Source: Chitinophagaceae bacterium (lineage in GTDB: Bacteria; Bacteroidota; Bacteroidia; Chitinophagales; Chitinophagaceae). Taken from it: a DNA stretch of 45,799 bases. The position numbers were made by a program, and so were the translations under genes. How positions within the stretch are numbered: position 1 is the stretch's first letter; every line of letters begins with the position of its first letter. The notes beneath the pieces are model-generated. The model was not told the DNA's origin, searched no databases, and saw only the letters and a program-made list of their open reading frames with translations. The stretch lies in the NCBI GenBank assembly GCA_025933775.1, contig JAICZH010000014.1, positions 1 through 45,799 on the forward strand, given 5' to 3'. Positions 2,055 through 29,638 of the stretch are shown in pieces.

Positions 2055-2079
2055 ACTAACGGTGTGGCATAGACGCAGT
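2055..2079 (+). repeat. Dispersed 25-bp motif, copy a (variant right half)
   Basis: ACTAACGGT, GTG, then GCATAGACGCAGT. The left half is perfect and the right half ends CGCAGT instead of CGAAAA. It covers the last codons and stop of the MFS gene, which reads the opposite strand and so ends in Met-Pro-His-Arg-stop. Confidence 0.55.
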
Positions 2080-3237
2080 TTCTTTATTGCGAATAAAAGG
2101 GTTGCGCCATGCAGTATATGCCGATAATAAACTCATTACAATTAATAATGATAGTCCTTTTGATAGATTTGATTTTTCGGCAATAAAACCAATTACAGAA
2201 GGCCCGGTTAAAAAACCAATTAAACCTCCTGTGGTAATCATGGCATATCCTTTTACTGTGCTTACGCCGGGAATATTAGCAGACGCTCTGAACAAAACAG
2301 GAACAATACAACAGCTTCCAAAACCTATCAACACATAACCAACAATAGCAATTATTATTGAAGAAGTAGTAACAACCGTTAAAAAACCAGCAGCCGCTAA
2401 AAGCGCACCCGAAACCACTACCGTTTTACTACCGATCTTTGCAATCAACACATCTCCATTCAATCTTCCAACTGTCATAGCCACAGAAAAACCTGCATAA
2501 CCCAAGCTCATCAATGCTTTTGGCGATAACAGCACTTCTTTAAAATAAATAGCGCTCCAGTCGGCCACACAACCTTCGGCCATAAAGCTAACCATGCAAA
2601 TAAATGAAATACCCAATATAGATAATGAAGGTAATTTAAACGCCGACCTGCTATGAATAATATCGTTGTTTGCCAATAAATAATTTTTATTAAAAAAAAT
2701 AATTGTTACAATAATAATAGCCATCATCACAATTTGCCAGCCCGAAGAAATATGCAAAGTAAATAATAAAGCAGCAATTCCTGAACTTACTGCGCCACCC
2801 ATGCTATACATGCCATGGCAGGTGCTCATAAAAAGTTTTTTGTATTTTTTTTCCATAAGGTTTACGGTGGCATTTACAGAAACGCCATTTAAAAAACTAA
2901 TTCCACCAAAGCAATAGAGGCAAACCCAAAACATAATTCTGTTTACTGAATTTATCTGCAGCATCATAATACAGCATACAATTAAATATCCGGTAAACAT
3001 CCATTTGCCCACTGATATTTTCATAAATATTTTTGAAGATAATATCATTCCTGTAATAGCTCCTAACGGCGACAGTAAGAGGGAAAGCCCTAAACTCCCA
3101 TCTGAAAAGCCAAGCCTGGCCTTAATTCCAGGGATAGACCCAACCCAAATTCCAAAAAGCAGACTGGTAACTGCATACAAAAAACCCACTGAAAACAATG
3201 GCCGGTTATTTAAAAAGGAAATAAAATTTTTAAACAT
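2056..3237 (-). CDS. MFS transporter (sugar/fucose permease-like, 12 helices)
   Basis: A 393-residue membrane protein of the major facilitator superfamily, expected in the inner membrane. Hydrophobic segments are spread along the whole chain in two halves of six, separated by a loop near residues 185-205. The N-terminal part contains FGIWVGSIPGIKARLGFSDG and GLSLLLSPLGAITGM, typical of the YbjJ/fucose-permease branch of MFS. The substrate cannot be read from the sequence. The gene lies 36 bases downstream of the YdcF-like gene on the same strand, so the two are probably cotranscribed. Its stop codon and last four codons fall inside a copy of the dispersed 25-bp motif, which suggests the C-terminus has been remodelled by that sequence. 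Confidence 0.85.
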   Translation of the reverse strand: MFKNFISFLNNRPLFSVGFLYAVTSLLFGIWVGSIPGIKARLGFSDGSLGLSLLLSPLGAITGMILSSKIFMKISVGKWMFTGYLIVCCIMMLQINSVNRIMFWVCLYCFGGISFLNGVSVNATVNLMEKKYKKLFMSTCHGMYSMGGAVSSGIAALLFTLHISSGWQIVMMAIIIVTIIFFNKNYLLANNDIIHSRSAFKLPSLSILGISFICMVSFMAEGCVADWSAIYFKEVLLSPKALMSLGYAGFSVAMTVGRLNGDVLIAKIGSKTVVVSGALLAAAGFLTVVTTSSIIIAIVGYVLIGFGSCCIVPVLFRASANIPGVSTVKGYAMITTGGLIGFLTGPSVIGFIAEKSNLSKGLSLLIVMSLLSAYTAWRNPFIRNKETASMPHR

Positions 3238-3273
3238 AATTCAATTGGATGCGATACTTCAATTAAAAAAAAT

Positions 3274-3924: not shown

Positions 3925-3955
3925 ATAAAATTTTAAAAGAAAGGAAGCGTATAAA

Positions 3956-3980
3956 TTTTCGTTTATGCGTTACCGTTAGT
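3956..3980 (-). repeat. Dispersed 25-bp motif, copy b
   Basis: Read on the minus strand: ACTAACGGT, AAC, GCATAAACGAAAA, an essentially perfect copy. It begins 28 bases beyond the stop of the small lipoprotein gene at 4008 and in the same orientation, and lies upstream of the YdcF-like gene. Confidence 0.8.
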
Positions 3981-4007
3981 TTGCATAATTTTTTTGCAAA
4001 TAAAAAA

Positions 4008-4307
4008 TTATTGTATCCTGAAAACTTTTTTAAAATCATTTGAGATAGTTGCCGCTACAATACCGGTGGTATCTTTTTTATTAAACTGCATTTCCACATG
4101 AAATTGGCAGATATAATCTTTTTCTTTTTTTTCAGGATAATAAGTAACATCTTTGATAGTAAACTGAACGCCGGGCCGAAGCGTTTTATGCAGGTAATCT
4201 CCCATTGTTTTTATAAGTTGTTTCTGCAATGCAACTCCCGATAATTCTTTTGGCTTACATCCCGCTCCAAAAGTCAATAAAAGGGCAGCAATAAAAAAAT
4301 GTTTCAT
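4008..4307 (-). CDS. Small lipoprotein of unknown function
   Basis: A 99-residue protein with a signal peptide ending in the lipobox-like TFGAGC, so Cys17 is the likely lipidation site and the mature protein of about 83 residues is membrane anchored on the periplasmic side. The remainder has alternating hydrophobic and polar residues (VQFTIKDVTYYPE, YICQFHVEMQF), consistent with a small beta-sheet domain. I do not recognise the family. It is followed by a copy of the dispersed 25-bp motif and preceded by a 333-base gap with a nested inverted repeat, so it is probably a single-gene unit. Confidence 0.6.
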   Translation of the reverse strand: MKHFFIAALLLTFGAGCKPKELSGVALQKQLIKTMGDYLHKTLRPGVQFTIKDVTYYPEKKEKDYICQFHVEMQFNKKDTTGIVAATISNDFKKVFRIQ

Positions 4308-4440
4308 TGAATTTTTTCAATAAAATTAATAAACTTATAAATTGTTTCTATAAGAAACTTGTTGTAAAAAGATAAAAGAAATAATAAAACGAAACCCATT
4401 GTACGATTAAATTTTTGGTGAATAGTACTATAGTAATATC

Positions 4441-4562: not shown

Positions 4563-4640
4563 AAAGACAAAAAAATAAAAAATATATCTCAATCACACAA
4601 CGGGTAAAACGAAATAAAAAAAATAATATTTGTAAAAACA

Positions 4641-5582: not shown

Positions 5583-8399
5583 TTAATGCGCTTCCAGCCA
5601 GTTATCACCGACGCCCACTTCTGCGTCTACGGGTACACCGTTAGGTAATGGCAAAGCATTTTGCATACATTCGATGATGATTGGTTTTATTTCTTCCACT
5701 TCACTTTTATGTGCATCAAAAACCAATTCATCATGTACCTGCATAATCATTTTCGATTTAAAATTTTGCTTTTTAAATTCATCATAAATTTTAATCATGG
5801 CAAGTTTTATCATATCTGCAGCTGTGCCTTGAATGGGTGAATTAATTGCATTTCGTTCTGCATACCCGCGAACCGTCCAGTTGGAAGAATTTATATCTTT
5901 CAACCATCGCTTACGTCCCATCAGCGTTTGTACGTAACCGTTAGTTTTGCAAAAAGAAATTGTTTCATCCATATATTTTTGAATATTGGCAAATTCTTTT
6001 TTATAAGCTTCGATGATTTCTTTTGCTTCAGTTCTGCTCACATTAATATTTTCTGCAAGCCCGAAAGCGCTTTGCCCGTAAATGATTCCAAAGTTTACGC
6101 TCTTGGCTTTATAACGCATTTCTTTAGTTACATCATCTTCGGCTACATTAAAAACTTTTGCAGCGGTTGCTGTATGAATATCTTTTTTTTCTTTGAAAGC
6201 ATTGCTCATGGCAGAATCGCCGCTAATTGCTGCAACAATTCTTAATTCAATTTGCGAATAATCTGCAGAAATAATTACGTGATCGCTGTTGCGCGGTATA
6301 AATGCTTTTCTTATTTCACGGCCTCTTTCAGTTCGTATGGGAATGTTTTGCAAATTAGGATTATTGCTGCTCAATCTACCTGTAACTGCAATCGCTTGTC
6401 CATAGCAGGTATGCACACGATTGGTTTTTTTATTTACAATTTGCGGCAATGCGTCAACATAAGTTGATTTTAATTTAGTAAGCTCACGAAAATTTAAAAT
6501 GTCTTCTACAATCGGATTTTCTTTTGCAAGTTTTAATAAAACATCTTCGCCGGTAGAATGCTGGCCGCCTTTTGTTTTTTTTCCTTTATCTAATTGCAAT
6601 TTTCCAAACAATACTTCACCCAATTGTTTTGGTGAAGCGAGATTAAATTTTATTCCGGCTTGTTCAAACACGCTCTGCTCGCATTTTGCAGCTTCTGTTT
6701 CTAATTCTTTTGAATAAACATTTAAAAAATTCATGTCCACTTTTACGCCTTCGTATTCCATATCCATCAACACTTTCACTAACGGCGACTCTACTTCATT
6801 AAAAACTTTTTCTACTTTTTTTTCTTTTAGTTGCGGAACAAAAATATTTTTTAACTGCCTTGTAATATCTGCATCTTCTACTGCATATTCTTTTGCTTTT
6901 TCTACTTCCACATCACGCATGTTGTTTTGCGCTTTTCCTTTCTTGCCAATTAATTCTGTAATAGAAACGGGTAAATAACCGAGATACTGAGCGCTGAGCA
7001 AATCCATATTGCGCCTGCCTTCGCTTTCAATTACATAATGTGCGAGCATGGTATCAAACACTTTTCCTTTCAATTCAAAGCCATACCATTTCAATACAAG
7101 CATATCATATTTTATATTTTGTCCAATCCATAAAATGGATTCATCAGCGAATAAATTTTTAAAATGATTTAAAATATGAACAACGCTTTCTTCATCATCC
7201 GGAAAAGGAATGTAATAACCTTCGCTATTTTTATATGAAAAACTTAAACCAACCAACTCCGCTTCATTGGCATCCACATGAGTGGTTTCTGTATCGAAAG
7301 AAATTTCTTTTTGGTCGCTTAATTTTTTTATCAAATCAATAATTGCTTCATCACCTTCTACTAAAAAATAATTATGTGGAGTATTGTTGATATTTTTTTC
7401 TGCAGCAAGTCCGGGTTTTTCTTCAACAAGCTTTTCTTCTTCAGGCTTTGGAATGGGCTGCTCCATTGCGTTTCCGAAGAGATCAGTTTGTATTACCTGT
7501 TTCTCTACCACAAACACATTATATTCATCTCCCAAAATTCTTTTGCCTAAAGTTTTAAATTCAAACTCTGCAAAAAGATCTTTCAAAACTTCAGTATTGT
7601 AGGCCTTCACTCTAAAATCTTCTTCATGAAATTTGCACGGAACTTTTTCGGTGATAATAGTTGCCAGCTTTTTACTCATGATGGCGGAATCTTTACCCAC
7701 TCTTATCTTTTCACCCAAGGCGCCTTTTATATTTTCAGCGTCCGCTAAAATATTTTCAATGGATTCATACTGCGCTAATAATTTAGCTGCAGTTTTTTCT
7801 CCAATGCCTGCAATGCCCGGAATGTTATCAGCGCTATCTCCCATCAATCCGAGGATATCTATAACCTGCTTTACATTTTTTATTCCCCATTTTTCACAAA
7901 CCTCTTTTATTCCCATAATTTCTACTTTGCCACCCTGGTAGCCGGGTTTATAAATTTTTATTTTATCAGTAACTAATTGCCCAAAATCTTTATCAGGCGT
8001 TACCATAAAAACTTCATAACCTTCTTTCTCCGCTTGCTGTGCGAGCGCTCCAATGATGTCATCGGCTTCGTAACCATCGCATTCAACAACGGGCAAATTA
8101 AATCCTTCAATTATTTTTTTTATATCAGGAATGGAAGTAATTAAATCTTCAGGCGCTTCTTGCCGGTTGGCTTTGTAAGCTTCAAAGTCAGTATGCCTTT
8201 CGGTAGGCGCCCACGTATCGAAAGCTACCGCAAGGTGTGTTGGTTTTTCTTTGCTCAATAAATCAAATAATGTATTGGTAAAACCAAATTGTGCATTGGT
8301 ATTTTTCCCTTTGGTAGTAATTATCGGGCTGCGAATTAAGGCATAATAAGCACGATAAATTAGCGCCATTGCATCGAGTAAAAATAATTTTTTATTCAT
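5583..8399 (-). CDS. polA: DNA polymerase I
   Basis: A full-length 938-residue family-A polymerase that fills gaps in repair and removes Okazaki primers. Residues 1-290 are the 5'-3' exonuclease domain (FDTWAPTERH, DGYEADDIIGALA, GLMGDSADNIPG). The 3'-5' exonuclease at about 350-520 is intact: SFDTET, GQNIKYD and YAVEDAD carry the acidic residues, so proofreading is expected. The polymerase has motif A (SADYSQIELR), motif B (RYKAKSVNFGIIYG) and motif C (MQVHDELVFD). The 310-340 linker is charged and variable, as usual. The start at 8399 is supported by a TACTTTTA box a few bases upstream. It is a stand-alone gene. Confidence 0.97.
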   Translation of the reverse strand: MNKKLFLLDAMALIYRAYYALIRSPIITTKGKNTNAQFGFTNTLFDLLSKEKPTHLAVAFDTWAPTERHTDFEAYKANRQEAPEDLITSIPDIKKIIEGFNLPVVECDGYEADDIIGALAQQAEKEGYEVFMVTPDKDFGQLVTDKIKIYKPGYQGGKVEIMGIKEVCEKWGIKNVKQVIDILGLMGDSADNIPGIAGIGEKTAAKLLAQYESIENILADAENIKGALGEKIRVGKDSAIMSKKLATIITEKVPCKFHEEDFRVKAYNTEVLKDLFAEFEFKTLGKRILGDEYNVFVVEKQVIQTDLFGNAMEQPIPKPEEEKLVEEKPGLAAEKNINNTPHNYFLVEGDEAIIDLIKKLSDQKEISFDTETTHVDANEAELVGLSFSYKNSEGYYIPFPDDEESVVHILNHFKNLFADESILWIGQNIKYDMLVLKWYGFELKGKVFDTMLAHYVIESEGRRNMDLLSAQYLGYLPVSITELIGKKGKAQNNMRDVEVEKAKEYAVEDADITRQLKNIFVPQLKEKKVEKVFNEVESPLVKVLMDMEYEGVKVDMNFLNVYSKELETEAAKCEQSVFEQAGIKFNLASPKQLGEVLFGKLQLDKGKKTKGGQHSTGEDVLLKLAKENPIVEDILNFRELTKLKSTYVDALPQIVNKKTNRVHTCYGQAIAVTGRLSSNNPNLQNIPIRTERGREIRKAFIPRNSDHVIISADYSQIELRIVAAISGDSAMSNAFKEKKDIHTATAAKVFNVAEDDVTKEMRYKAKSVNFGIIYGQSAFGLAENINVSRTEAKEIIEAYKKEFANIQKYMDETISFCKTNGYVQTLMGRKRWLKDINSSNWTVRGYAERNAINSPIQGTAADMIKLAMIKIYDEFKKQNFKSKMIMQVHDELVFDAHKSEVEEIKPIIIECMQNALPLPNGVPVDAEVGVGDNWLEAH

Positions 8400-8511: not shown

Positions 8512-9099
8512 ATGGAAGTGAAAGAACCTGCTCCCGCTTATCAAAAAAAGTTTTATTCCATTCAGGAATATTTGGAAATGGAAAATGAAGCTTTTGAAAA
8601 GCATGAGTATTATAAAGGGGAAATATTTGCTATGTCGGGCGCCGGGCCAAGGCATAATATTATTTCCATTAATATTATTGCATCGCTTTACAATTCACTG
8701 AAAGGTAAAAGTTGCCAACCTTACGGCAGCGATATGAGAATTCATATTCCACAAAACACTTTATTTACTTATCCTGATATTTCAATTATTTGCGGTGATA
8801 TAATCAATCCTAAAGAAGATGAAAATACCGCTACAAATCCCAAAATTATTTTTGAAATACTTTCTCCTTCAACAAGAAACTATGATCGTGGTGTAAAATT
8901 TATGCTTTACCGTGCTATCGCCACTTTAAAAGAATATATACTCATAGAGGGGGAAACAATTCATATAGAACATTTCGCAATTAATAACGAAGGGTTTTGG
9001 CAATTGAAAGAATATTCTAATGTGGATGATAAAATAATTTTAGAATCACTTGAAATAACGTTGCTGCTGAAAGATGTTTATGACAGGTGCAAATTGTAA
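8512..9099 (+). CDS. Uma2 family protein (DUF820, restriction endonuclease-like fold)
   Basis: A 195-residue Uma2/DUF820 protein. It shows the typical YSIQEYLEME start, EYYKGEIFAMSGAGPRHN with the conserved Glu and His, the Asp of YPDISIICGD, the Glu of IIFEILSPSTRNYDRG, and KFMLYRAIATLKEYILI. These residues build the PD-(D/E)XK-like catalytic core that gave the family its endonuclease label, but the natural target is unknown. Such genes are frequent, often scattered singletons, in Bacteroidota and cyanobacteria. It is divergent from polA and convergent with the esterase gene, 33 bases apart. AATCTTTG at 8490-8497 is a possible -7 box, and a small GAAAGTT/AACTTTC stem lies at 8454-8471. Confidence 0.85.
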   Translation: MEVKEPAPAYQKKFYSIQEYLEMENEAFEKHEYYKGEIFAMSGAGPRHNIISINIIASLYNSLKGKSCQPYGSDMRIHIPQNTLFTYPDISIICGDIINPKEDENTATNPKIIFEILSPSTRNYDRGVKFMLYRAIATLKEYILIEGETIHIEHFAINNEGFWQLKEYSNVDDKIILESLEITLLLKDVYDRCKL

Positions 9100-10016: not shown

Positions 10017-10041
10017 TTTTCGTATATGCGTTGCCGTTAGT
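10017..10041 (-). repeat. Dispersed 25-bp motif, copy c
   Basis: On the minus strand: ACTAACGGC, AAC, GCATATACGAAAA. It starts 21 bases downstream of the serC stop codon, in the orientation of serC. Confidence 0.8.
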
Positions 10042-10061: not shown

Positions 10062-11165
10062 TTAATGATTTTTTTCAAACTCTTTCATTACATCAATAAA
10101 ATATTCAACACTGCTTACCGGCAATGCATTATAAATAGATGCCCTGAAGCCGCCGACAGTTCTATGTCCTTTTATTCCGTAAATATTATTTTGTTCTGCA
10201 AAATTCAAAAACTTTTTTTCCAATGAAATATCTTTTATTATAAAACATACATTCATTTTGCTTCTGTCTTCTTTTACCGCTGTAGCTTTAAAGAGAGCGC
10301 TGTTGTCAATTGCCTGGTAAAGCATTTCAGCTTTTTGATTGTTTACTTTTTCAATTGCTTCTATGCCTTCCTGTTGTTTCAACCATTGAAGGGTGAGCAT
10401 ACAAACATACACCGCAAATACGGGCGGCGTATTCAGCATGCTTCCTTCTTTTATATGATTGCGATAATCCATTATAGTTGGCAAAGCGCGTTTTACTTTT
10501 CCCAAAATATTTTTTTTTACCACAACAAGATTTACGCCGGCAGGACCCATATTTTTTTGAGCGCCTGCATATATCAATGCAAAAGAATTAAAATCTCTTT
10601 GCCTGCTGAAAATATCGCTGCTCATATCAGCAACCAACGGAATGCTTACAGCAGGAATGCTTTGCCATTGTGTGCCATAAATGGTGTTGTTAGTAGTGAT
10701 ATGAAAATATTTTGAATCGTTAGGAACAGCAAAATTTTTTGGAATAAAATTATAATTTGATTCTTTTGAAGTGCACACCACATCTACGTTTCCAAAGAGT
10801 TTTGCTTCTTTAATTGCTTTAGCGCTCCACACGCCCGTATCAGCATAAGCTGCAGTTTCATTTTCGTTCAGCAAGTTCATGGGCACTTGCATAAATTGAG
10901 TAGATGCGCCGCCATGCAGGAATAAAACTTCATGTTCATCATCGAGGTTCATTAATTCTCTTACAAGCGCTCTTGCTTCCTCCATGATGGATTGAAAATC
11001 TTTGGTACGATGACCCATTTCAAGAATAGATAAACCGGTATTATTATAATTTAATACTGACCTGGAAGCTTGCTCAAAAACAGTTTTAGGCAATATAGAA
11101 GGTCCGCCATTAAAATTATGAACGAATTTTTTTTCAGTGATAACATCGTCATTAACTAAATTCAT
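10062..11165 (-). CDS. serC: Phosphoserine aminotransferase
   Basis: A 367-residue PLP enzyme that converts 3-phosphohydroxypyruvate and glutamate to phosphoserine and 2-oxoglutarate in serine synthesis, and often acts in pyridoxine synthesis as well. The N-terminus FNGGPSILPKTVFEQAS and ISILEMGHR-type block, the phosphate-binding FLHGGASTQF, and the Schiff-base Lys204 in YAGAQKNMGPAGV are diagnostic. The C-terminus shows GHRTVGGFRASIYNALP, also conserved. In many Bacteroidota serA is adjacent; here it is not within the window. A perfect TAAATTTG box 20 bases upstream of the ATG is a good promoter candidate. A copy of the 25-bp motif follows the stop. Confidence 0.96.
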   Translation of the reverse strand: MNLVNDDVITEKKFVHNFNGGPSILPKTVFEQASRSVLNYNNTGLSILEMGHRTKDFQSIMEEARALVRELMNLDDEHEVLFLHGGASTQFMQVPMNLLNENETAAYADTGVWSAKAIKEAKLFGNVDVVCTSKESNYNFIPKNFAVPNDSKYFHITTNNTIYGTQWQSIPAVSIPLVADMSSDIFSRQRDFNSFALIYAGAQKNMGPAGVNLVVVKKNILGKVKRALPTIMDYRNHIKEGSMLNTPPVFAVYVCMLTLQWLKQQEGIEAIEKVNNQKAEMLYQAIDNSALFKATAVKEDRSKMNVCFIIKDISLEKKFLNFAEQNNIYGIKGHRTVGGFRASIYNALPVSSVEYFIDVMKEFEKNH

Positions 11166-15118: not shown

Positions 15119-16345
15119 ATGCAAAAAATATTAAAATTAAGTATGCTCATTGTGTTTCTTGCTTTCGTTATTTCCTGCGGTGATACTGAAAAGAAAGAAA
15201 AAACTGCCAACACATTAAGCGATAAAAAAACTGAGCTTGCAAAACTTAAGGCCGATCAATCAAAGCTGAATGATAAAATAAATGCATTAGAAAAAGATAT
15301 TGCCAAACTTGATACCAGCGCTGCTTCTCAGCAAAAGGCAAAGCTGGTAGCGCTTGCGCCCATTGCGTTACAGGAGTTTAATCATTATCTCGATTTGCAG
15401 GGAACCGTTGATAACAAAAATGTTTCTTACATAACGCCAAGCGGGCAAGGCGGACAAATAAAAGCGATTTACGTAAAACAGGGAGATCACGTAAGAAAAG
15501 GTCAGCTTGTTTTAAAATTGGATGATGCCGTTGCTGCGCAAAATGTTCTTGCAGTGAAGCAACAATTAGGAAGTGTAAAAGCGCAACTTGATTTGGCTAA
15601 ATCAGTTTATCAACGTCAGAAAAATCTTTGGGACCAACACATCGGCACCGAAGTGCAATTGCTGCAGGATAAAACAAATGTTGAGTCTTTGGAAAATCAA
15701 TTAAAAACAATTCAGGCGAATATAGCGGCAGCGCAAGCACAGGCCAATCAAAGTAACGTGTATAGCAATGTGAATGGAACTGTGGATGAAGTTACCGCTC
15801 ATGTGGGTGAATCATTTAATGGCAATCCATTAACCGGCGGTTACATAAAAATTGTGAATAATGCCGATATGAAAATTACGGTAACTATTCCTGAAAATTA
15901 TGCAAGCAAAGTGAGCAAAGGTTCAAAAGTGCAAGTGCAAATTCCTGATGTAAATAAATCTTTTAACGGAACTATTTCTTTCATAAGCCAAACCATTGGC
16001 ACTAACTCACGCGGATTCACTGCAGAAATAAAAGTGCCATCTTCATTAAACTTAAAACCCAACCAGGTGGCCATTGTAAAAATTCTGGATTATTCAGTTC
16101 CGAGCACAGTGGTTATTAATGTAAACACATTGCAAACAGATGAGCAGGGAAAATTTGTATTGGTAGCTGCAAAAGAAGGCGATAAGATGATTGCCAGAAA
16201 AAGGCAGGTAGAAACAGGCGAATTATCAGGCGACCAAATTGAAATAAAAAGTGGTTTAAAACCCGGCGATGAATTAATCACCGAAGGGTATCAATCTATT
16301 TATGACGGGCAGTTGATAACAACTACTGCTCAATCCGCAAACTAA
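15119..16345 (+). CDS. RND efflux periplasmic adaptor (membrane fusion lipoprotein)
   Basis: A 408-residue adaptor linking pump and channel. A signal peptide with lipobox VISC (Cys20) anchors it to the membrane. A charged coiled-coil follows at about 33-70, then a lipoyl-like half (GGQIKAIYVKQGDHVRKGQL at about 110-130), a helical hairpin (about 140-205), the second lipoyl half (NVNGTVDEVTAHVGESF), a beta-barrel domain, and a membrane-proximal end with GDQIEIKSGLKPGDELITEG. The extra N-terminal coiled coil is common in Bacteroidota adaptors. Its stop codon TAA lies within the first of two tandem copies of the dispersed 25-bp motif, which fill the 52-base gap to the pump gene. Confidence 0.93.
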   Translation: MQKILKLSMLIVFLAFVISCGDTEKKEKTANTLSDKKTELAKLKADQSKLNDKINALEKDIAKLDTSAASQQKAKLVALAPIALQEFNHYLDLQGTVDNKNVSYITPSGQGGQIKAIYVKQGDHVRKGQLVLKLDDAVAAQNVLAVKQQLGSVKAQLDLAKSVYQRQKNLWDQHIGTEVQLLQDKTNVESLENQLKTIQANIAAAQAQANQSNVYSNVNGTVDEVTAHVGESFNGNPLTGGYIKIVNNADMKITVTIPENYASKVSKGSKVQVQIPDVNKSFNGTISFISQTIGTNSRGFTAEIKVPSSLNLKPNQVAIVKILDYSVPSTVVINVNTLQTDEQGKFVLVAAKEGDKMIARKRQVETGELSGDQIEIKSGLKPGDELITEGYQSIYDGQLITTTAQSAN

Positions 16346-16365
16346 CGGTAAAGCATACACGAAAA
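16341..16365 (+). repeat. Dispersed 25-bp motif, copy d1 (tandem)
   Basis: ACTAACGGT, AAA, GCATACACGAAAA: a perfect copy that includes the stop codon of the adaptor gene (16343-16345). It shares its last A with copy d2, so the two are head-to-tail at a 24-base period. Confidence 0.85.
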
Positions 16366-16389
16366 CTAACAGTCAAGCATACACGAAAA
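16365..16389 (+). repeat. Dispersed 25-bp motif, copy d2 (tandem)
   Basis: ACTAACAGT, CAA, GCATACACGAAAA. One change from consensus in the left half. It ends 8 bases before the ATG of the pump gene, so the entire adaptor-pump spacer is built from copies d1 and d2. Confidence 0.85.
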
Positions 16390-19300: not shown

Positions 19301-20411
19301 ACTCGTGTTGCAATTTAATTCGGTGAGTAAATCAGTTATTATTCTTACTGAAATTATTTTTAGTGTGATTGGCGTTTTGTTAGGCTTTGCCATTACGGGA
19401 ATGGAAGTATCTACCGTAATGACGGGTATTGGAATTGTAGGCCTGGCGGGCATTGTAGTGAAGAACGGAATATTGGTAATTGAATTTGCCGATGAATTGC
19501 GTGCACGCGGAATGAAAACGCGGGAAGCCGTTATCAAAGCCGGTAAAACAAGAATTATTCCGGTAATGCTTACTGCATTGGCGGCCATACTTGCATTGCT
19601 TCCTTTGGCAATCGGTTTCAATATTAATTTCGTTACCATGTTTGCCGATCTCAATCCGCATATTTTCTTTGGCGGGGATAGCGTTGTTTTCTGGAAGCCG
19701 CTTTCATGGACGATTATATTTGGACTTGCCTTTGCATTTTTTATGACGCTGATAATTGTGCCCAGCATGTATTTGATTGCAGAAAGATTAAGACGCCCCA
19801 TGCGCAGGCAATTCGGTGGCACATGGATTTCCATGTTGGGCATTCCGCCATTAACGATAATATTTATGCCGTTGATGTTGATTACCATGTTTATTCATCG
19901 TGCAAAGGTTAAACGAAAAAGAAAAGTTGTTGGATATAATAAAAGCACAATTGAAAGGATGTCTCAAACTGAAAAACCTGCAAGCGTTGTTGCTGCTATA
20001 ACTCTTTTGAAAATTGCATTGGGAATAAACGTCATTAACGTAATCATAGGATTAATAACAAATTCTTACAGCAACCAAATGTTTATTAGTTCTTTACTGG
20101 TTGGTATACTTTCTTTTATCATAACAATACTATTCATTTATTGGTTAAACAATGGGAAAAACTGGGCAAGAACAATTTTTTTAATAATAGAAATAATCGG
20201 GAGTTTAATTTTTATATTTAGTTTGCAATTAGTATTTAAATTAAATTTTATAACTGGATTTATTTCTATTGCAATTACTGTTATTCAATTGATAGCCTTA
20301 TTTAAACTTTATTCAAAAGAAAGTAATAGTTGGTTTAAAGCGAGAAAAATTAGCAACGTCGCAATTAAAAGTGACAAAGTGAATGAAGCTTTTATTGGTA
20401 GCTGGTTTTAA
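16398..20411 (+). CDS. RND efflux permease with an extra C-terminal four-helix membrane domain
   Basis: A 1337-residue proton-driven pump of the AcrB/HAE1 type, inner-membrane part of the tripartite exporter. The opening TTIYLAIVFISIIGIFQFLT and PKEQFPDIVIPTIFV, the porter loops, the TM4 acidic pair in GLGIIVDDAIVVIENT and the TM10 Lys-Asn of GIVVKNGILVIEFADELR are all present, so proton relay residues look intact. The family normally ends near residue 1180. Here the frame continues from Met1188 into about 150 residues with four hydrophobic helices and the motif NGKNWAR, resembling a free-standing small membrane-protein family. The last residues (KVNEAFIGSWF) may be the original pump tail. 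A strong terminator follows. The drug or lipid substrate is unknown. Confidence 0.93.
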   Translation: MSVKENIKERFKQFKPTSWAIGNKTTIYLAIVFISIIGIFQFLTLPKEQFPDIVIPTIFVQTTYVGNSPRDIENLVTRPIEKQLKGITGAKINKITSTSYQDFSAITVEYNTDVKTEVALQKTKDAVDKAKIDLPTDLTSEPNVQEVSFSEFPIMFVNFSGDYNMISLKKFADDAKDKLEELSQISRVDIVGAPEREFQINVDNYKMQSANVTFDDIANAVQRENVDISGGLLEVGNMKRTLQIRGQFKNAFDISKIIIRNTYGEPIYLKDIATIKDTVKTSESYARLNGKNVVTLNIIKRAGENLIETSDDVKKAVAGMKGNILPSNLNVVITGDQSQSTRTSFNDLVNSIVIGFVLVLLILMFFMGVTNAFFVALSVPLSMFVAFLFLPGADIIVGSHVTLNFIVLFALLFGLGIIVDDAIVVIENTHRIFTENKGRLSPARSAKMAAGEVFVPVLAGTLTTLAPFFPLLFWPGIIGKFMIYLPTMLIFTLTASLIVAFIMNPVFAVDFMSHTDDETVQRKSTVFRSPAFWVPLGVGIFFDLIHVTFLGNLLIFFSFLVILNRYVFDGLIHKFQNKALPAIMRRYEQLLRWALNGWKPVWLLLGTFALLIFSFVLFSVRNVPVVFFPKGDPNFIYVYLKLPVGTNVDYTDSITNDIEKKVTRVLDGPQGKPNPIVESIISNVAVGASDPNSGDRSTQPNLGRVQVSFVEYEKRHGVSTSPYLDSIRSTLKGIPGAEISVAQEQDGPPTEPPINIEVASEDFDKLTSTAKNLKNYLDSLQIPGIEELKLDVDLTNPEITLKINRERAQIEGVSTAQIGQQIRTALFGREASKIKIGEDEYKIQIRNDELQRKSLSELLNMKIVFRDQNAGGAVKQVPITSLVDVDYTSTYGSIKRKNVKRVITLVSNVLNGYTPTGVNEKIKTAIDNFNQKPVGVTITQTGEGAQQAETASFLGKALMIALMLILFILVLQFNSVSKSVIILTEIIFSVIGVLLGFAITGMEVSTVMTGIGIVGLAGIVVKNGILVIEFADELRARGMKTREAVIKAGKTRIIPVMLTALAAILALLPLAIGFNINFVTMFADLNPHIFFGGDSVVFWKPLSWTIIFGLAFAFFMTLIIVPSMYLIAERLRRPMRRQFGGTWISMLGIPPLTIIFMPLMLITMFIHRAKVKRKRKVVGYNKSTIERMSQTEKPASVVAAITLLKIALGINVINVIIGLITNSYSNQMFISSLLVGILSFIITILFIYWLNNGKNWARTIFLIIEIIGSLIFIFSLQLVFKLNFITGFISIAITVIQLIALFKLYSKESNSWFKARKISNVAIKSDKVNEAFIGSWF

Positions 20412-20484: not shown

Positions 20485-20509
20485 TATAACGGTGATGGAT
20501 ATACGCAGA
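20485..20509 (+). repeat. Dispersed 25-bp motif, copy e (variant)
   Basis: TATAACGGT, GAT, GGATATACGCAGA. The core positions are kept and the tail is CGCAGA as in copy a. It lies just beyond the efflux-operon terminator, in the same orientation. Confidence 0.6.
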
Positions 20510-22141: not shown

Positions 22142-23101
22142 ATGGATAATATTAAAATTGCAACCGCACAGTTTGAACATAAAAGCGGCGATAAAAATTA
22201 TAATTTAAAAATAATTGAAAGCCTTTCTCAGGCTGCTTCTCAGCAAGGAGCATGTGCCGTTGCTTTTCATGAATGTTCTATAACCGGTTATACTTTTGCC
22301 CGGCATCTTTCCGAAGATCAATTGCTGCAACTATCAGAATATATTCCCGGCGGTGAAAGCATTACAAGGCTTACAGAAATTGCTGCAAAAAATAATATTG
22401 CTGTTTTAGCAGGGCTTTTTGAAAGAGATAATGATAAAATTTATAAAGCTTATGTATGTGTTGATAAAAACGGATTAGTAGCGAAGCATAGAAAATTGCA
22501 TCCGTTTATTCATCCTGCCATTACTAACGGTGATGCATACACGATTTTTAATTTGCATGGATGGACTTGTGGCATTCTTATTTGTTACGACAATAATATT
22601 ATTGAAAATGTAAGAGCAACAAACCTGCTCGGCGCTGATGTTATTTTTATGCCACATGTTACTATGTGCACCCCATCACCCAGGCCGGGCGCAGGTTTCG
22701 TGGATCCGGAATTATGGATAAATAAAGAAAATGATCCCGAATCTTTGCGCCGAGAATTTAATGGCCCTAAAGGCCGGGAATGGCTGATGAAATGGCTGCC
22801 TGCAAGAGCATTTGATAATGGATTGTATGCAATATTTTCAAATGCAATCGGCATGGACGATGACCAGCTTAAAAATGGTTGCTCTATGATCATTGATCCG
22901 TTTGGAGATATAATTGCTGAATGTACCAAACTCGGCAATGATGTAGTAACCGCAAACATTGCAAAAGAAAAATTACTAAATGCCGGAGGGTATCGTTATA
23001 AAAAAGCGCGAAGGCCGGAATTATATAAAGATATTTTAGGACAACCGCATCATGCAGAACAAAAAGTGGCGTGGCTTAATCTTCAAAGTAATAATGATTG
23101 A
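22142..23101 (+). CDS. Carbon-nitrogen hydrolase (nitrilase superfamily)
   Basis: A 319-residue amidase-type enzyme. The Glu-Lys-Cys triad is visible: Glu44 in AFHECSITGY, the Lys of AKHRKLHPF and the Cys of GILICYDNN. The elements around them (KIATAQFEHKSGDKNYNL at the start; GADVIFMPHVT after the Cys) are standard for the superfamily. It has no signal peptide and should be cytoplasmic. It probably hydrolyses a C-N bond of a small amide; the pairing with an exported sugar dehydrogenase hints at breakdown of an N-containing carbohydrate, but this is inference. A match to the dispersed 25-bp motif lies inside the coding sequence at 22523-22547. Confidence 0.88.
   Translation: MDNIKIATAQFEHKSGDKNYNLKIIESLSQAASQQGACAVAFHECSITGYTFARHLSEDQLLQLSEYIPGGESITRLTEIAAKNNIAVLAGLFERDNDKIYKAYVCVDKNGLVAKHRKLHPFIHPAITNGDAYTIFNLHGWTCGILICYDNNIIENVRATNLLGADVIFMPHVTMCTPSPRPGAGFVDPELWINKENDPESLRREFNGPKGREWLMKWLPARAFDNGLYAIFSNAIGMDDDQLKNGCSMIIDPFGDIIAECTKLGNDVVTANIAKEKLLNAGGYRYKKARRPELYKDILGQPHHAEQKVAWLNLQSNND
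22523..22547 (+). repeat. In-gene match to the dispersed 25-bp motif (q)
   Basis: ACTAACGGT, GAT, GCATACACGATTT: 22 consecutive positions fit the motif and only the A-tail differs. It encodes TNGDAYTI in the nitrilase-family protein, a region that looks like ordinary family sequence. Confidence 0.45.
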
Positions 23102-24174: not shown

Positions 24175-24198
24175 TCTCGTATAGGCGTTACCGTTATA
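24174..24198 (-). repeat. Dispersed 25-bp motif, copy f
   Basis: On the minus strand: TATAACGGT, AAC, GCCTATACGAGAT. It fills the 27-base gap between the convergent ends of the frameshifted gene (stop ends at 24174) and the glycosylase gene (stop begins at 24202). Confidence 0.7.
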
Positions 24199-24201: not shown

Positions 24202-24873
24202 TTATTTTTTATCAGAAAACGCAAAAAGGTACTTGTTAATATATTCTTCTTTCTTTTTCAATTTGTATTGCATAATAAATCTCGGATGTGGTAAGGCAAT
24301 AATTTTATTAAAAAATTTTTGTTCATCATTTAATTTAGCCAAATACAAATAATTTTTTCCTTCACCAAAACAAAATGCCATTTCATGATGAATGCCAAAT
24401 TGCATTTGTTTTTGTATGCAATCAATTGCAAAATTTTTTATACTGTTTTGCAAGAACTTATCGTCGTAATAATTTAAATTTTTATTGTGCTTCGTAAAGC
24501 CAAGCGGGCTGGTGGAAGAAATATAAAATTGATTATAAAAATTTTCAGCTCCCCCGAAAGCATGTATCATTTCATAAATAAAAACAGAGCTTAATTCCTG
24601 CTTCTTCGGGAAAATATTTTCAATATTGCAAACCATTTGCAACCGAATCGGATCGGTGAATGGAATACCGGTAAGACCTGCACCAAATCTGCCAGGATTG
24701 ATACCGAATATGATGTATCGTGGATTATTATCATTATAATATTTTGTATAAAATTTTTGGCAGATGCTAAAAGTATTGGCATTGTTGAAAGGATTCATTA
24801 CTCCAATTTCTCCAGGAAGATTTATGGTAAGCTTCAGGTTTTTTAGAAAAGAAAGAATTTTTTCAGATAACAA
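24202..24873 (-). CDS. SMUG2-type uracil-DNA glycosylase family protein (DUF4918)
   Basis: A 223-residue protein of the uracil-DNA glycosylase superfamily. Motif A is GINPGRFGAGLTGIPFTD at about residues 57-74, and the C-terminal motif is LPHPRFIMQYK near residue 197, the signature of the SMUG2/DUF4918 branch. The middle region, with SSVFIYEMIHAFGG and YISSTSPLGF, also fits. Such enzymes remove uracil or oxidised/alkylated pyrimidines from DNA to start base excision repair; the base specificity here is not known. It is a cytoplasmic single-gene unit, convergent with the frameshifted gene. Confidence 0.85.
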   Translation of the reverse strand: MLSEKILSFLKNLKLTINLPGEIGVMNPFNNANTFSICQKFYTKYYNDNNPRYIIFGINPGRFGAGLTGIPFTDPIRLQMVCNIENIFPKKQELSSVFIYEMIHAFGGAENFYNQFYISSTSPLGFTKHNKNLNYYDDKFLQNSIKNFAIDCIQKQMQFGIHHEMAFCFGEGKNYLYLAKLNDEQKFFNKIIALPHPRFIMQYKLKKKEEYINKYLFAFSDKK

Positions 24874-24919: not shown

Positions 24920-26305
24920 TTATTGAATGCTTTCTATAATATTTTTTAAAAATGCATTTTCATCAAACGAATGATCAAGCGTTAATCCCAATCTTACCAC
25001 CACTAATTTTTTTGAAGGAATAATATAAATATTTTCATAAGCAAATCCATCGCAATAAAACATATCTGAAGGCACATCTGGAAACGCTTTTTGTGAAGGG
25101 TTTTTTTTATCAAAACCATTTAACCAAAACTGGTAACCATAATTTTTTAACGTATTTGCAGAAGAAGATGTTTGCGTTTGCTTTATCCAATTAACAGGTA
25201 ATATTCTTTCTCCATTCCATATTCCATCATTATAATATAATAATCCAAAGCGTGCATAATCTCTTGCGGTTGCATTAATGTAAGACGAGCCTACATAAGT
25301 TGCTGATGCATCCGGTTCGAATGAAGTATGGTACATTCCTATTTTATAAAACAAAGAAGTGAATGGAAAGGATGCATATTCTTTTTCACCAACAACTTGC
25401 CGTATAATGTGCGAAAGAATATTGCTGTTGCCGCTTGAATAATTAAATTGAGTTCCTGGTTCATGTGCTAATGAATGCGATGCTGCATAAGCAGCCATAT
25501 CATCTTTTTTATAGAGCATGTTAGTTACATCACTGGCTTTTGTATAATCTTCTTTAAAATCGAGTCCGCTGGTTTGCTGTAATAAATTTTCAACAGTAAT
25601 AGAATGTCGCGGATCTTTTAAATTGCTCCATTCAGCCACCGGCGCGGGTTGCATCACATTCAGTTTTCCTTGCTGAACCAAAACACCAATTAAAGCGGCG
25701 GTAAAACTTTTAGCCATAGACCATCCATACATTTTTGTATTCTTGTTCAAACCCGGAGCATATTTTTCTGCAATAATTTGCCCACTGTATAAAATAATTA
25801 CCGCTCTTGTTCTTTGTTTTTTGCCGGGATAAGGTTCAGTAAAAGCATTTGAAACGGCAGCATCTAATTTATTTTTATTAATAGTTGATGGAAATGTATC
25901 TACAATTTTATCGCCCGCAGGCCATCCAATTGTATCACTATTTTGATGAGGCGGCTCCGGAATTTCAAAAGATTGTAATCGCAATTGTTTTTCATTTATA
26001 TCATTGATTAAGGTGCAGCCTATTCGTTTTCGATAAACAGCTTTTTTTGTGGCAAAGCCCCATACAGCGCTGGTTACAGACGAATCCTGAAAGTTTACTT
26101 TATTGGTTGCTATGTTTAATGGAAACCATCCAAGATCGCTTGTATCAATATCTTTTGGGTCTCTTCCCGAAACAAAAACACAGGTACACATTTGTTTGGC
26201 ATTGTAGCCGCTTATTATGGGAAATGAAATCCATGCATAATGAATTACCCAAAGCAATACAATGAATATAACGGTAAGGCATACACGAAAAAAATATTTT
26301 CTCAT
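24920..26305 (-). CDS. Membrane-anchored serine hydrolase, beta-lactamase/NylB-like family
   Basis: A 461-residue protein with an N-terminal hydrophobic anchor (residues about 10-27) and a class C beta-lactamase-like domain. The SxxK motif is GWSMAKSFTAAL (about residues 195-206), the YxN-type motif appears as NYSSGNS, and the fold continues to YIIPSKKLVVVRLG. Overall it resembles 6-aminohexanoate-dimer hydrolase-like esterases more than true beta-lactamases. The active domain should face the periplasm. Residues 6-13 (FRVCLTVI) are encoded by a copy of the dispersed 25-bp motif read in reverse, so the start of the anchor derives from, or coincides with, that sequence. The start at 26305 is the only Met before the anchor. 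Confidence 0.85.
   Translation of the reverse strand: MRKYFFRVCLTVIFIVLLWVIHYAWISFPIISGYNAKQMCTCVFVSGRDPKDIDTSDLGWFPLNIATNKVNFQDSSVTSAVWGFATKKAVYRKRIGCTLINDINEKQLRLQSFEIPEPPHQNSDTIGWPAGDKIVDTFPSTINKNKLDAAVSNAFTEPYPGKKQRTRAVIILYSGQIIAEKYAPGLNKNTKMYGWSMAKSFTAALIGVLVQQGKLNVMQPAPVAEWSNLKDPRHSITVENLLQQTSGLDFKEDYTKASDVTNMLYKKDDMAAYAASHSLAHEPGTQFNYSSGNSNILSHIIRQVVGEKEYASFPFTSLFYKIGMYHTSFEPDASATYVGSSYINATARDYARFGLLYYNDGIWNGERILPVNWIKQTQTSSSANTLKNYGYQFWLNGFDKKNPSQKAFPDVPSDMFYCDGFAYENIYIIPSKKLVVVRLGLTLDHSFDENAFLKNIIESIQ
26267..26291 (+). repeat. Dispersed 25-bp motif, copy g, inside a signal-anchor coding region
   Basis: TATAACGGT, AAG, GCATACACGAAAA: a near-perfect copy. It lies within codons 5-13 of the serine hydrolase gene, on the opposite strand to transcription. 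Confidence 0.8.
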
Positions 26306-27624: not shown

Positions 27625-27661
27625 AATTAATTTTTTAAAAAAATTAATTTTAAATGATTGA

Positions 27662-28315
27662 TTAACGATGTTTATTTCCGCCAAACATATATCCGATTTT
27701 TATAGAAAAATATTTATTCTTAATCGTTCCGCTTTCATCGCCGCTTCCATCATCGTTATTAATTTTGCTTAATCCTAAATTATAATTTCCCGAAACTATA
27801 AACCCGCCTTTCAACCGGTAACCAACTACTGCATTTGCGCCGAAATCAAATGGCTTTACTTCATCTGCAGAAGAACCAAATTTTATTTTTTCATTATCGT
27901 CTGGCATTCCTTCTTGTTTAAGTTTGTCCATCCCGGAAATTCCATAAGCAATAGAAGGCCCGGCGCCGATAAAAAAACCTTCTTCTTTTTGTGTGCTGTA
28001 CACAAAATTTAAAGGAACTTCGAGATAATTAAAATTTACTGTTTCAGAGCTGCCGTTGTCTTTTATTTTATAACCTTTTTGTACAAAATTTAAAGCAGGT
28101 TGAAAATTAAAATTTTTGCCTAATGATGCGTCTATCATAATTCCGGCAGTAATTCCTGTTTTTAAGTTTGGCGAAACGGCAATCCCGCTTGCTTTAATAG
28201 TAACATTGGCAAATGTTGCGCCGGCAGTGAGGCCAATGCTCGTTTGTGCCGATAAAGAAAATGCTGTTAAGAGAATCATTAACGTCATTACAATTGTAAT
28301 TGATTTCATGTTCAT
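27662..28315 (-). CDS. Outer-membrane beta-barrel (porin/PorT-like) protein
   Basis: About 217 residues with the start at 28315 or 28309, where a signal peptide (MKSITIVMTLMILLTAFSL, cleavage near SAQ) begins. The mature part has the alternating pattern and aromatic-ended strands of a small 8-stranded barrel: IGLTAGATFANV, NFNFQPALNFVQKGYKI, NFNYLEVPLNFVY, GFFIGAGPSIAYG, PFDFGANAVVGYRL, FIVSGNYNLGLSKI and YFSIKIGYMFG at the end. This is typical of the PF13568 porin-family barrels of Bacteroidota. The cargo or role is unknown. It heads a run of three exported-protein genes and is divergent from the BetR-type regulator. Confidence 0.8.
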   Translation of the reverse strand: MNMKSITIVMTLMILLTAFSLSAQTSIGLTAGATFANVTIKASGIAVSPNLKTGITAGIMIDASLGKNFNFQPALNFVQKGYKIKDNGSSETVNFNYLEVPLNFVYSTQKEEGFFIGAGPSIAYGISGMDKLKQEGMPDDNEKIKFGSSADEVKPFDFGANAVVGYRLKGGFIVSGNYNLGLSKINNDDGSGDESGTIKNKYFSIKIGYMFGGNKHR

Positions 28316-28642
28316 TTTGTTTTTTGAGTTTTTGAAAATTGATTGTTTTATTTTTTTATAATGAATACGGGTTATCATAAAAGTTTTTTTTTAAATTATT
28401 TTAAATCCGGCGATGTATCAATATTGATTTAGCATTTATACATCCTGATTTAATAGTTGTTTATTTATAAATTTTTCAAGACAAAATTCTACATGCATAG
28501 CGCTGTTTCCTAATTGATGTTATCTTAACGGCCAATTATTTTTTGCATTTTTAACTAACCGGCGATTTTCCGAAATAAAAATTTGTAATTCTTGCAAAAA
28601 CTGTTTCCGGTTATTATATTTAATAATTAATTTTTTTAAAAG
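28316..28642. other. Divergent promoter region, about 327 bases
   Basis: This gap separates the beta-barrel gene (minus) from the regulator gene (plus). It is AT-rich. TAACCGG (28556-28562) and CCGGTTA (28607-28613) are perfect inverted arms 44 bases apart upstream of the regulator and could be operator half-sites. No gene or RNA is recognisable. Confidence 0.35.
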
Positions 28643-29638
28643 ATGGAAGCTGCCGAACTGCAAACAGCTTTTTTGAAGCAAATAAAAAATCAATTGCCTT
28701 CAAATCTTGCATTGGTTGATGCTATTGCAGATCAGCTGAACCTTAGCAACGACAGCGCTTACAGGCGCATAAGAGGCGAAAAACATCTTACGTTTGATGA
28801 AATACAAATTCTTTCGGCACATTATAAAATTTCACTCGATAGCTTTCTGCATTTGCAAAATGATTCATTAATTTTCTGGGGGAAAAATATCAACCGAAAT
28901 GAATTTGATTTTGAAAATTATTTATCAGGTATTGTACGCCAACTGGAATATTTTTTAAATGCAGATAAAACACAAATGTATTATCTCAATAAAGACATTC
29001 CAATTTTTCATCATTTCATGTTTCCGGAACTTGCTGCATTTAAATGTTATTTCTGGAGCCGTTATGATTTGGATTATCCTAAATTTAATAAAGGACAATT
29101 TTTAATTGAAGATTTTATTGACATTTTTAATAATACAGGTAAAAAAATTTCTGATTTATATCTTCAAATTCCTTCTGTAGAAATATGGAATCTTGATTGT
29201 ATTAATACCACCATCCGGCAAATAGATTATTACCGGGAAACGCGAATTTTTAAATCTCAAAAAGATATTGAAACTGTTTATTCGTGCCTGGAAAAATTAA
29301 TTGATCATATAGAGCTTCAGGTGGAGTGTGGATATAAATTTTCGCCCGGTAAACCGCAGCCAGAGAAAAAAATAAAATACGATGTTTACATTAATGAATT
29401 TATTTTGGGAGATAATACCATTGCCGTAGAAATGGATGAAGAAAAAATGGTTTTTCTCAATCATAATGTTATAAATTATATTATGACTAATAATAAAGAC
29501 TTTATTAATTATACCTTTGAAACTTTAAAAATATTATTAAAAAAATCAATGCTTATAAGCGAGATAGGCGAAAAAGAACGGCAGCTTTTTTTCTATAACT
29601 TACGGGAACGCATACACGAAAAAAGAAAATCAGCCTGA
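28643..29638 (+). CDS. BetR-like helix-turn-helix regulator
   Basis: A 331-residue cytoplasmic protein of a Bacteroidota-specific regulator type. The N-terminal DNA-binding part (about 20-75) reads LVDAIADQLNLSNDSAYRRI then RGEKHLTFDEIQILSAHYKI, an XRE-like helix-turn-helix related to the BetR domain. The remaining 250 residues are helical and aromatic-rich with no enzymatic motif, and presumably form a sensing or dimerisation domain. It is divergent from the exported-protein cluster at 26.3-28.3 kb and may regulate it. The last codons (NLRERIHEKR) are encoded by a good copy of the dispersed 25-bp motif. Confidence 0.75.
   Translation: MEAAELQTAFLKQIKNQLPSNLALVDAIADQLNLSNDSAYRRIRGEKHLTFDEIQILSAHYKISLDSFLHLQNDSLIFWGKNINRNEFDFENYLSGIVRQLEYFLNADKTQMYYLNKDIPIFHHFMFPELAAFKCYFWSRYDLDYPKFNKGQFLIEDFIDIFNNTGKKISDLYLQIPSVEIWNLDCINTTIRQIDYYRETRIFKSQKDIETVYSCLEKLIDHIELQVECGYKFSPGKPQPEKKIKYDVYINEFILGDNTIAVEMDEEKMVFLNHNVINYIMTNNKDFINYTFETLKILLKKSMLISEIGEKERQLFFYNLRERIHEKRKSA
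29598..29622 (+). repeat. Dispersed 25-bp motif, copy h, in the 3' end of the regulator gene
   Basis: ACTTACGGG, AAC, GCATACACGAAAA: two changes from the consensus, both in the left half. It ends 16 bases before the gene's last base, in the gene's orientation. Confidence 0.75.

Follow-up and report, generated by a model that had tools for sequence, protein, structure and literature searches.

A dispersed two-part DNA motif in a Chitinophagaceae genome resembles the DNA-uptake tags of other bacteria

Genes and motif copies in the window

The window, i.e., the whole stretch of 45,799 nucleotides that we analyzed (contig JAICZH010000014.1 of the Chitinophagaceae bacterium assembly GCA_025933775.1), contains, among others, an MFS gene, polA, an aminotransferase gene, an HlyD-type gene, an AcrB-type gene, and a gene of the UDG family. 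Copies of a non-palindromic motif, whose core is CTAACGGTNNNGCATANACGMARWT, lie within and between the genes. The original prediction listed nine copies with a fixed spacing, and all nine are present where it placed them. They belong to a set of 16 matches at up to two mismatches, of which seven are further copies, while 100 dinucleotide shuffles averaged 0.08 matches and never exceeded 1. A weight-matrix scan of the window retrieved 20 sites, including three weak ones of 12-14 bits:

2056..2077, plus strand, 32.6 bits: copy in the MFS gene 2056-3237 (minus strand), at its 3' end
3958..3979, minus strand, 38.1 bits: intergenic copy
5923..5944, minus strand, 28.2 bits: copy within polA; the aligned place in polA of the relative G016 is also a site
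6442..6463, minus strand, 13.6 bits: weak copy within polA; not a site in G016
10019..10040, minus strand, 37.0 bits: intergenic copy, 21 b downstream of the aminotransferase gene 10062-11165
10356..10377, minus strand, 14.3 bits: weak copy within the aminotransferase gene 10062-11165
16342..16363, plus strand, 34.6 bits: copy whose TAA supplies the stop codon of the HlyD-type gene 15119-16345
16366..16387, plus strand, 33.2 bits: second copy, 24 b past the 16342 copy and in the same orientation, preceding the AcrB-type gene 16398-20411
20486..20507, plus strand, 34.3 bits: intergenic copy
22524..22545, plus strand, 33.3 bits: copy within gene 22142-23101
24176..24197, minus strand, 29.3 bits: copy 4 b downstream of the UDG-family gene 24202-24873
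26268..26289, plus strand, 32.8 bits: copy in gene 24920-26305 (minus strand), at its 5' end
29599..29620, plus strand, 32.2 bits: copy near the 3' end of gene 28643-29638; its G016 counterpart is degenerate (12.7)
31109..31130, minus strand, 31.8 bits: copy within gene 30727-31911, matched by a site at the aligned place in G016
32607..32628, plus strand, 26.0 bits: copy within gene 32064-33164
34779..34800, plus strand, 30.6 bits: copy within the minus-strand gene 34615-35607
34926..34947, minus strand, 23.6 bits: copy within the same minus-strand gene 34615-35607
37578..37599, minus strand, 33.1 bits: copy within the plus-strand gene 36963-38666
38321..38342, plus strand, 27.9 bits: copy within the same plus-strand gene 36963-38666
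43271..43292, minus strand, 12.3 bits: weak copy within gene 42619-43464

The motif is over-represented across the whole genome. Exact matches to TAACGGTNNNGVATANACG number 138 in the 3.25 Mb genome against 0 for the reversed pattern, the one-mismatch pattern TAACGGTNNNGSATANACG gives 421 matches against 3, and a degenerate pattern 635 against 8. With counts far above the shuffles in the window and far above the reversed-pattern controls in the genome, the motif is confirmed as real, and it is bigger than first described. The weight matrix identified 124 sites in 445 kb, around one per 3.6 kb, with a two-peaked score distribution and a site information of 26 bits. The three-base centre, initially described as variable, is not free, since position 8 is A in 81% of the sites and position 9 is C in 53%; beyond around 25 bp there is little conservation in this set. 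AT-rich flanks are phased around the sites, a suggestive observation that is confounded by intergenic composition. Contiguous k-mers compared with Markov expectation reveal the motif only partly: ACGGTAAC is second among the 8-mers of genome G000 and is missing from the 8-mer list of G016. When pairs of words were compared with independence, pieces of the motif ranked first in both genomes.

Placement, origin and distribution of the sites

The original prediction had placed most copies near stop codons, in the orientation of the gene that ends there. The first part is true of the nine copies it listed but not of the full set: among the 124 sites, 83 are within predicted coding regions, where they occupy all six frames, 36 are intergenic, and 5 lie across a gene end (gene calls are from a home-made predictor, not a standard one). 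As for orientation, the tendency is weak: of 24 sites flanked by co-directional genes, 17 are oriented along with them (two-sided P 0.06). Intergenic DNA holds 0.68 sites per kb and coding DNA 0.21 per kb, a roughly threefold difference, and sites are densest between convergent genes and sparsest before divergent ones. The two strands carry near-equal numbers (66 and 58). We also looked for strand polarity linked to replication in 1.12 Mb of G016 and saw none: 181 sites are on the plus strand and 185 on the minus strand, in a region where the GC skew is negative in 13 of 14 bins. Orientation did not follow the direction of replication, as it would in polar sites of the KOPS or Chi type, and a polar segregation signal is disfavored. 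The spacing of the sites in G016 is random.

To assess how sites arise, we used the 30 that lie in DNA alignable with the nearest relative, G016. The alignment is ungapped for 22 of them, 14 are also sites in G016, and the core columns (60 mismatches in 330 positions) are more conserved than the same words elsewhere (0.268 for control words). The remaining eight alignments are gapped and not decisive, two of them having gaps long enough to fit an insertion. These ungapped alignments, shared sites, and conserved core columns indicate that the sites mostly originate by substitution and are then inherited and maintained.

The same motif is found in G016, G147, and G306, with differences in sharpness. 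Relatives have it at places both shared and not shared with the window genome. Its presence is patchy across the family and within the genus, where one supported clade of four genomes lacks it. In the genus of the window, G007, G009, G010, and G015 have no motif, and G019, their neighbor on the PolA tree, has it. Chitinophaga costaii (strain A37T2), which is in culture and is not known to be a pathogen, is a carrier, and the motif recurs in a few genomes of other families. Taken as a whole, the original interpretation is partly supported: a non-palindromic, genome-wide motif that looks like a protein-recognised site was right, and the DNA-uptake or recombination signal that it named remains a candidate.

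A candidate DNA-exchange tag and its alternatives

The motif, scattered through this genome and those of some relatives, most resembles the tags of self-recognition in DNA uptake of some other bacteria. We tentatively favor, with a confidence slightly short of even, a sequence-specific DNA-exchange tag that would work as the Neisseria and Haemophilus uptake sequences do. A putative protein of the recipient cell would bind double-stranded DNA at the two-part site CTAACGG-N4-G-N2-TA-N2-CG, favoring the uptake of fragments that bear it, and homologous recombination would then write the tagged alleles into the chromosome. Under such biased exchange, point mutations would give rise to further copies at any place that tolerates the sequence, irrespective of strand and frame; copies would be commoner between genes, and existing ones would be retained.

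The alternative that survives best, unlikely as we consider it, is a site kept by selection to which a protein of the nucleoid or of chromosome organisation binds, for compaction, the loading of condensin, or nucleoid occlusion. Such a protein could well have a site that is rich in information, genome-wide, strand-neutral, maintained, and randomly spaced, and the depletion before divergent genes is also in its favor. However, counts and sharpness differ strongly within the genus and a supported clade of four has no motif, which one would not normally expect of a core function of the chromosome. It is less probable that the motif is a site of recombination or repair, or an over-represented site tied to methylation, like Chi or HIP1. 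Over-representation across the genome and conservation would fit this, but known Chi sites are short and act in an orientation-dependent manner, whereas the motif is non-palindromic, holds 26 bits, and is evenly distributed between the strands of 1.12 Mb. Rather improbable is a bias on the donor side, where the tag would mark DNA for packaging or export (vesicles or gene transfer agents) and recombination in the recipients would spread it. One would expect from it the same genomic footprint as from biased uptake, but a virus collection yielded only nine stretches that match exactly, which is not a direct test. Finally, the tiny mobile repeat and the RNA signal at 3' ends that the original prediction named are very improbable: 27 of the 36 intergenic sites have the 3' end of a gene within 100 b and an insertion would fit into two of the eight gapped alignments, but 22 of the 30 sites match G016 base for base, little is conserved beyond around 25 bp, and sites that mostly arise by substitution and are inherited and maintained make a mobile repeat unlikely, while the near-equal strands and the 83 intragenic sites in all six frames speak against the RNA signal. 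Sites of a REP- or MITE-like repeat would be insertions relative to orthologous DNA, which the 22 ungapped alignments do not show.

Candidate uptake machinery and comparison with known systems

A DNA-exchange tag raises the question of its machinery, which we searched for in 33 hand-picked carriers (all but G070, 58 vs. 20, of the 34 genomes that reach 50 matches) and in 33 hand-picked non-carriers, each from a different genus (32 are below the reversed control and G137 is above it, 10 vs. 5). Among the 25 top-ranking candidates of each genome, a full-length match to the T4P/T2SS ATPase (PF00437) was missing in 31 of the 33 carriers; it was found in two carriers and one non-carrier, and the pilus ATPase was rejected as uptake machinery. 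Ten genomes of the same genus were added in the searches for DUF5689, a Riemerella-type surface gene, and for ComEC. Strong DUF5689 matches are rarer in carriers (3/33) than in non-carriers (20/33), and its barrel partner was found in 7 of 40 hand-picked genomes, only where DUF5689 is strong; this pair of DUF5689 and TonB barrel was rejected as the receptor. In G108, which has DUF5689 and lacks the motif, a blind search for another uptake-type motif returned a longer dispersed repeat and, once this was masked, nothing comparable.

ComEC is nearly universal (32/33 carriers and 32/33 non-carriers, as well as the same-genus non-carriers G003, G007, G009, G015, and G017) and was rejected as a family-wide correlate. 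It is suggestive inside genus g58 only, where the motif is present in both ComEC-bearing genomes (43 vs. 11 and 27 vs. 16) and absent from three of the four genomes without ComEC. A second ComEC search covered 13 hand-picked genomes, of which G058 proved to be outside g58. Neither search found ComEC in the carrier G303 (83 vs. 10), and in the carrier G251 the gene is interrupted by a stop. We infer that the bias may act at the step of DNA uptake, with ComEC as the candidate inward carrier of DNA and the site read by a putative receptor other than a type IV pilin.

If this is true, self-recognition in DNA uptake has evolved again, with another receptor, in Bacteroidota without a visible pilus. 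The motif could then be used as DNA bait to search this phylum for such a receptor, and perhaps as a route to transforming these bacteria. If the sites organise the chromosome instead, they form a large and fast-evolving class for which there is no known protein. Either reading is testable in cultured Chitinophaga costaii.

Compared by eye, the motif consensus shares neither the known DUS core GCCGTCTGAA nor the known USS core AAGTGCGGT. The DUS of Neisseriaceae are 10-12-mers and, like the motif, are short, strongly over-represented, and both genic and intergenic, whereas the motif is a 24-bp two-part site without a common core. Variants at the species level, described for DUS as dialects (PMC3630211), are common to both. 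The DUS receptor ComP is reported to be part of the pilus (PMC3868556), whereas most motif carriers have no match to the pilus ATPase. Type IV pilus machinery, scored by its ATPase, is a feature of DUS and USS systems that we did not find in most carriers, while copy number, presence on both strands, genic sites with denser intergenic ones, origin by substitution with conservation, and variants in relatives were all found.

The USS of Pasteurellaceae have an AT-rich flank. They resemble our motif in being long with such a flank and in occurring in hundreds of copies on both strands, and differ from it in core and phylum; their receptor is predicted to be a minor pilin (PMC12616744). Natural transformation in Riemerella (Flavobacteriaceae) shares its phylum with the motif carriers. 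It is described as proceeding without known pilus parts, its essential genes being dissimilar to known uptake machinery (PMC8459023), and the Riemerella-type gene DUF5689 is strong in only three of the 33 carriers. R. columbina is reported to prefer its own DNA (PMC7965970); that work established no uptake motif, its counts of k-mers up to 10 bp having given A/T-rich words. HIP1 of cyanobacteria is over-represented genome-wide and uneven among genomes (PMC4390886), as is our motif. HIP1 is an 8-bp palindrome tied to methyltransferases, whereas the motif is gapped and non-palindromic over 24 bp.

The literature at hand sets uptake sequences in Neisseriaceae and Pasteurellaceae, with receptors that are known or predicted parts of the pilus. 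With a little less confidence than in the tag itself, we propose that the motif may belong to an uptake-sequence system of Bacteroidota outside these two families. Its two-part tag of 24 bp would differ in sharpness from species to species, have been lost repeatedly, and be read by a receptor that is not related to type IV pilins, and the recurrence in other families would suggest transfer or great age of the system.

Abundance, consensus and placement of the sites

The pattern TAACGGTNNNGVATANACG matches the window 16 times at up to two mismatches (shuffled sequences: mean 0.08, maximum 1). The whole assembly of the genome holding it, G000 (3.25 Mb, of which the window is one of 197 contigs), carries 138 exact matches (65 and 73 on the two strands) and none to the reversed pattern that we used as a control. 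We refined a weight matrix on the window and 20 stretches of 19-20 kb of the same genome (444.8 kb in total), and it identified 124 sites, or one every 3.6 kb on average; a third-order Markov simulation yielded about 2-3. Scores form two peaks: 131 sites exceed 8 bits and 105 still exceed 20 bits, compared with 9 and 0 in the simulation. The consensus, (C/A)TAACGGT-N-A-c-G-C-a-T-A-N-A-C-G-(A/C)-A-(A/G)-(A/T)-T, spans about 24 bp and holds 26.3 bits; outside it there is little conservation, AT-rich flanks excepted. A word-pair count blind to the motif ranked its pieces first both in G000 and in its nearest relative, G016.

Genes were called with a home-made hexamer model, in which 88% of the DNA is coding. 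Sites are denser in non-coding DNA (0.68 per kb) than in coding DNA (0.21 per kb); gaps between convergent genes are the densest (8 per 5,996 bp) and those between divergent genes the poorest (3 per 16,140 bp). Hence, sites gather where DNA is least constrained, which explains the link to stop codons in the original prediction. This link stands for intergenic sites, 27 of 36 being at most 100 b from a gene 3' end, and does not extend to the 83 of 124 sites that lie within predicted genes, in all six frames (the other five cross a gene end). The spacing is near-random, with a coefficient of variation of the gaps of 0.94 in G000 and 0.97 in G016, and a variance/mean ratio of counts per 10 kb of 0.87 and 0.99. 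We also followed a single G016 contig over 1.12 Mb. Its GC skew is negative in 13 of the 14 80-kb bins and close to zero in the other, yet its 366 sites are split almost evenly between the strands (181 plus, 185 minus), so this stretch shows no replication polarity. In the window, a tandem pair in the same orientation, 24 b apart, occupies 16342-16387, its first copy supplying the stop codon of the gene at 15119-16345. An Uma2-family gene (8512-9099; PF05685, putative restriction endonuclease) adjoins polA.

Origin and distribution of the motif

By PolA, the closest to G000 of the other 19 genus members is G016 (90% identity). We compared the two over around 112,000 aligned columns from sampled parts of both, which include 30 G000 sites. 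Of these, 22 align without gaps over 33 columns, and 14 of the 22 score as sites by G016's own matrix. The eight gapped alignments are not decisive, and two of them (contigs 1 and 17) contain gaps that could accommodate an insertion. In the reverse comparison, 14 of 33 G016 sites are common to G000 and two are gapped. At the gapless sites, 60 of 330 cells in high-information columns differ (0.18), compared with 0.268 for motif words outside sites and 0.19-0.23 for shifted flanks; in low-information columns, 57 of 198 differ (0.29). Core conservation relative to the word control has a binomial P of 1.6e-4, with columns treated as independent. Gapless alignment, sharing with G016, and conserved core columns thus show that sites were mostly made by substitution, then inherited and maintained.

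Across the 20 genomes of the genus, matches with one mismatch number 421, 63, 40, 37, 33, 28, 24, 18, 14, then 0-7 (reversed 0-3). G016 has few close matches, yet a matrix refined there finds 102 sites above 16 bits (0.75 simulated); its motif is that of G000 in a more degenerate form (18.2 bits). On a PolA tree built from 12 genomes of the genus, the motif state must change three times, and four genomes lacking the motif form a supported clade. In the family (294 genomes, MTAACGGNNNVGNNTANACGMARW, two mismatches), 34 genomes have at least 50 matches, with a patchy distribution among genera, many of which are at or under the reversed control. Many non-carriers have fewer forward than reversed matches (e.g., G104, 5 vs 25; G125, 5 vs 24), and the control may therefore overstate chance there. 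Matrices refined in other genera gave 21 sites in 140 kb (G147), 39 in 120 kb (G306), and only 7 in 140 kb (G251). In the non-carrier G108, refinement yielded one match and no matrix. Contig 3 of G108 (stretches L165-L180) carries another kind of dispersed repeat, TTGCGTCGCACTCTTGTACT, and the similarity between copies continues past it; GCGTCGCA has 36 copies in 320 kb, and this looks like a longer repeat family, not a point-mutation tag.

Among 396 genomes of the class, G706, of another family, is a clear outsider (117 vs 4), followed by G703 (38 vs 7) and G678 (18 vs 5); beyond these, no outside-family genome was seen with more than 16 matches. A scan of named-species genomes returned 18 exact-match stretches in 14 genomes (17 stretches Bacteroidota by record title, one archaeon). 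Whole-genome counts make nine of the 14 carriers, including Chitinophaga sp. CP_BE_BS_R2_1 (374 vs 14) and C. costaii A37T2 (139 vs 14), the lowest being a Chitinophagia MAG (32 vs 1). The remaining five comprise four non-carriers, namely the archaeon (3 vs 3), Spirosoma (13 vs 8), and two Saprospiraceae (3 vs 9, 9 vs 11), and one Bacteroidota MAG of doubtful status (15 vs 7). Judged by these names, the family to which the window belongs is probably Chitinophagaceae.

Candidate uptake machinery in carriers and non-carriers

Transformation of Riemerella requires ComEC, DprA, ComF, and RecA, as well as four proteins without known counterparts; two of the four, a surface protein with DUF5689 and a protein resembling TonB receptors, are predicted to be encoded in one operon (PMC8459023). 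Impaired transformation of tonB mutants is described in PMC8383284. PMC7965970 reports that R. columbina prefers self-DNA, and that the top words in k-mer counts up to 10 bp are A/T-rich; such counts could miss a gapped 24-bp motif. The relevant passages of PMC8443641 and PMC10257627 name Chitinophagaceae solely in other contexts. Among the matches listed in open-access PMC literature on uptake or over-represented motifs and natural transformation, including Chitinophaga and Chitinophagaceae, no such motif is described in Bacteroidota.

We searched 33 carriers and 33 non-carriers of the family. Full-length PF00437 (pilus/T2SS ATPase) occurs in two carriers (G163, G329) and one non-carrier (G069); five further genomes exceed the cut-off solely through short matches within other frames. 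DUF5689 at E < 1e-39 is present in three carriers, all of genus g57, and 20 non-carriers, or 1 of 15 carrier genera vs 20 of 33 non-carrier genera. A further six carriers and one non-carrier have weaker matches that still pass the cut-off, and ten additional same-genus genomes have none. Of 40 genomes searched for the TonB-type barrel partner, seven have it, and strong DUF5689 occurs in exactly these seven. The two genes adjoin in four family genomes:

L161, 3037-7095: TonB-type barrel gene directly 5' of DUF5689 lipoprotein gene
L162, 3197-7125: same arrangement
L163, 5057-9657: same arrangement
L164, 2988-7064: same arrangement

The pair is rare in carriers and common in genomes without the motif. 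Immediately downstream of it in G108 lies a gene resembling that of a secreted DNA/RNA endonuclease (DRGH motif).

ComEC was found in 74 of 76 genomes. In genus g58 it is present in G331 (motif 43 vs 11) and G267 (27 vs 16), and was not found in G303 (83 vs 10), G077 (10 vs 10), G164 (8 vs 10), and G222 (10 vs 9); these four are near-complete genomes, as is G060, which also has no ComEC match. It is otherwise nearly universal in the family. G303 speaks against a simple dependence of the motif on ComEC, unless the loss is recent or the gene falls in an assembly gap. Three genomes of the window's genus (G007, G009, G015) keep a full-length ComEC frame and have no motif. In the carrier G251, the frame is in two pieces with an internal stop (contig 1, 2160398-2162022; L269, L273), and sites are few and degenerate in the sampled stretch.

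Possible biased DNA exchange and comparison with known uptake sequences

The anatomy of the motif is as expected from biased DNA exchange: sites arise without gaps, show no preference for strand or frame, and lie where they are tolerated, and there is conservation, species-level sharpening, and decay. We regard a putative uptake-type function as the leading reading, at slightly below even odds, because two machinery tests were negative and both the receptor and uptake itself are hypothetical. The same anatomy is also compatible with the site of a putative chromosome-organising protein, to which whole clades without the motif and its variable sharpness are a poorer fit. The motif may function like DUS or USS, a question separate from that of membership. 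Membership was rejected on two of the features tested: the core sequence of DUS/USS is not that of the motif, and a full-length match to their pilus ATPase (PF00437) was found in 2 of 33 carriers.
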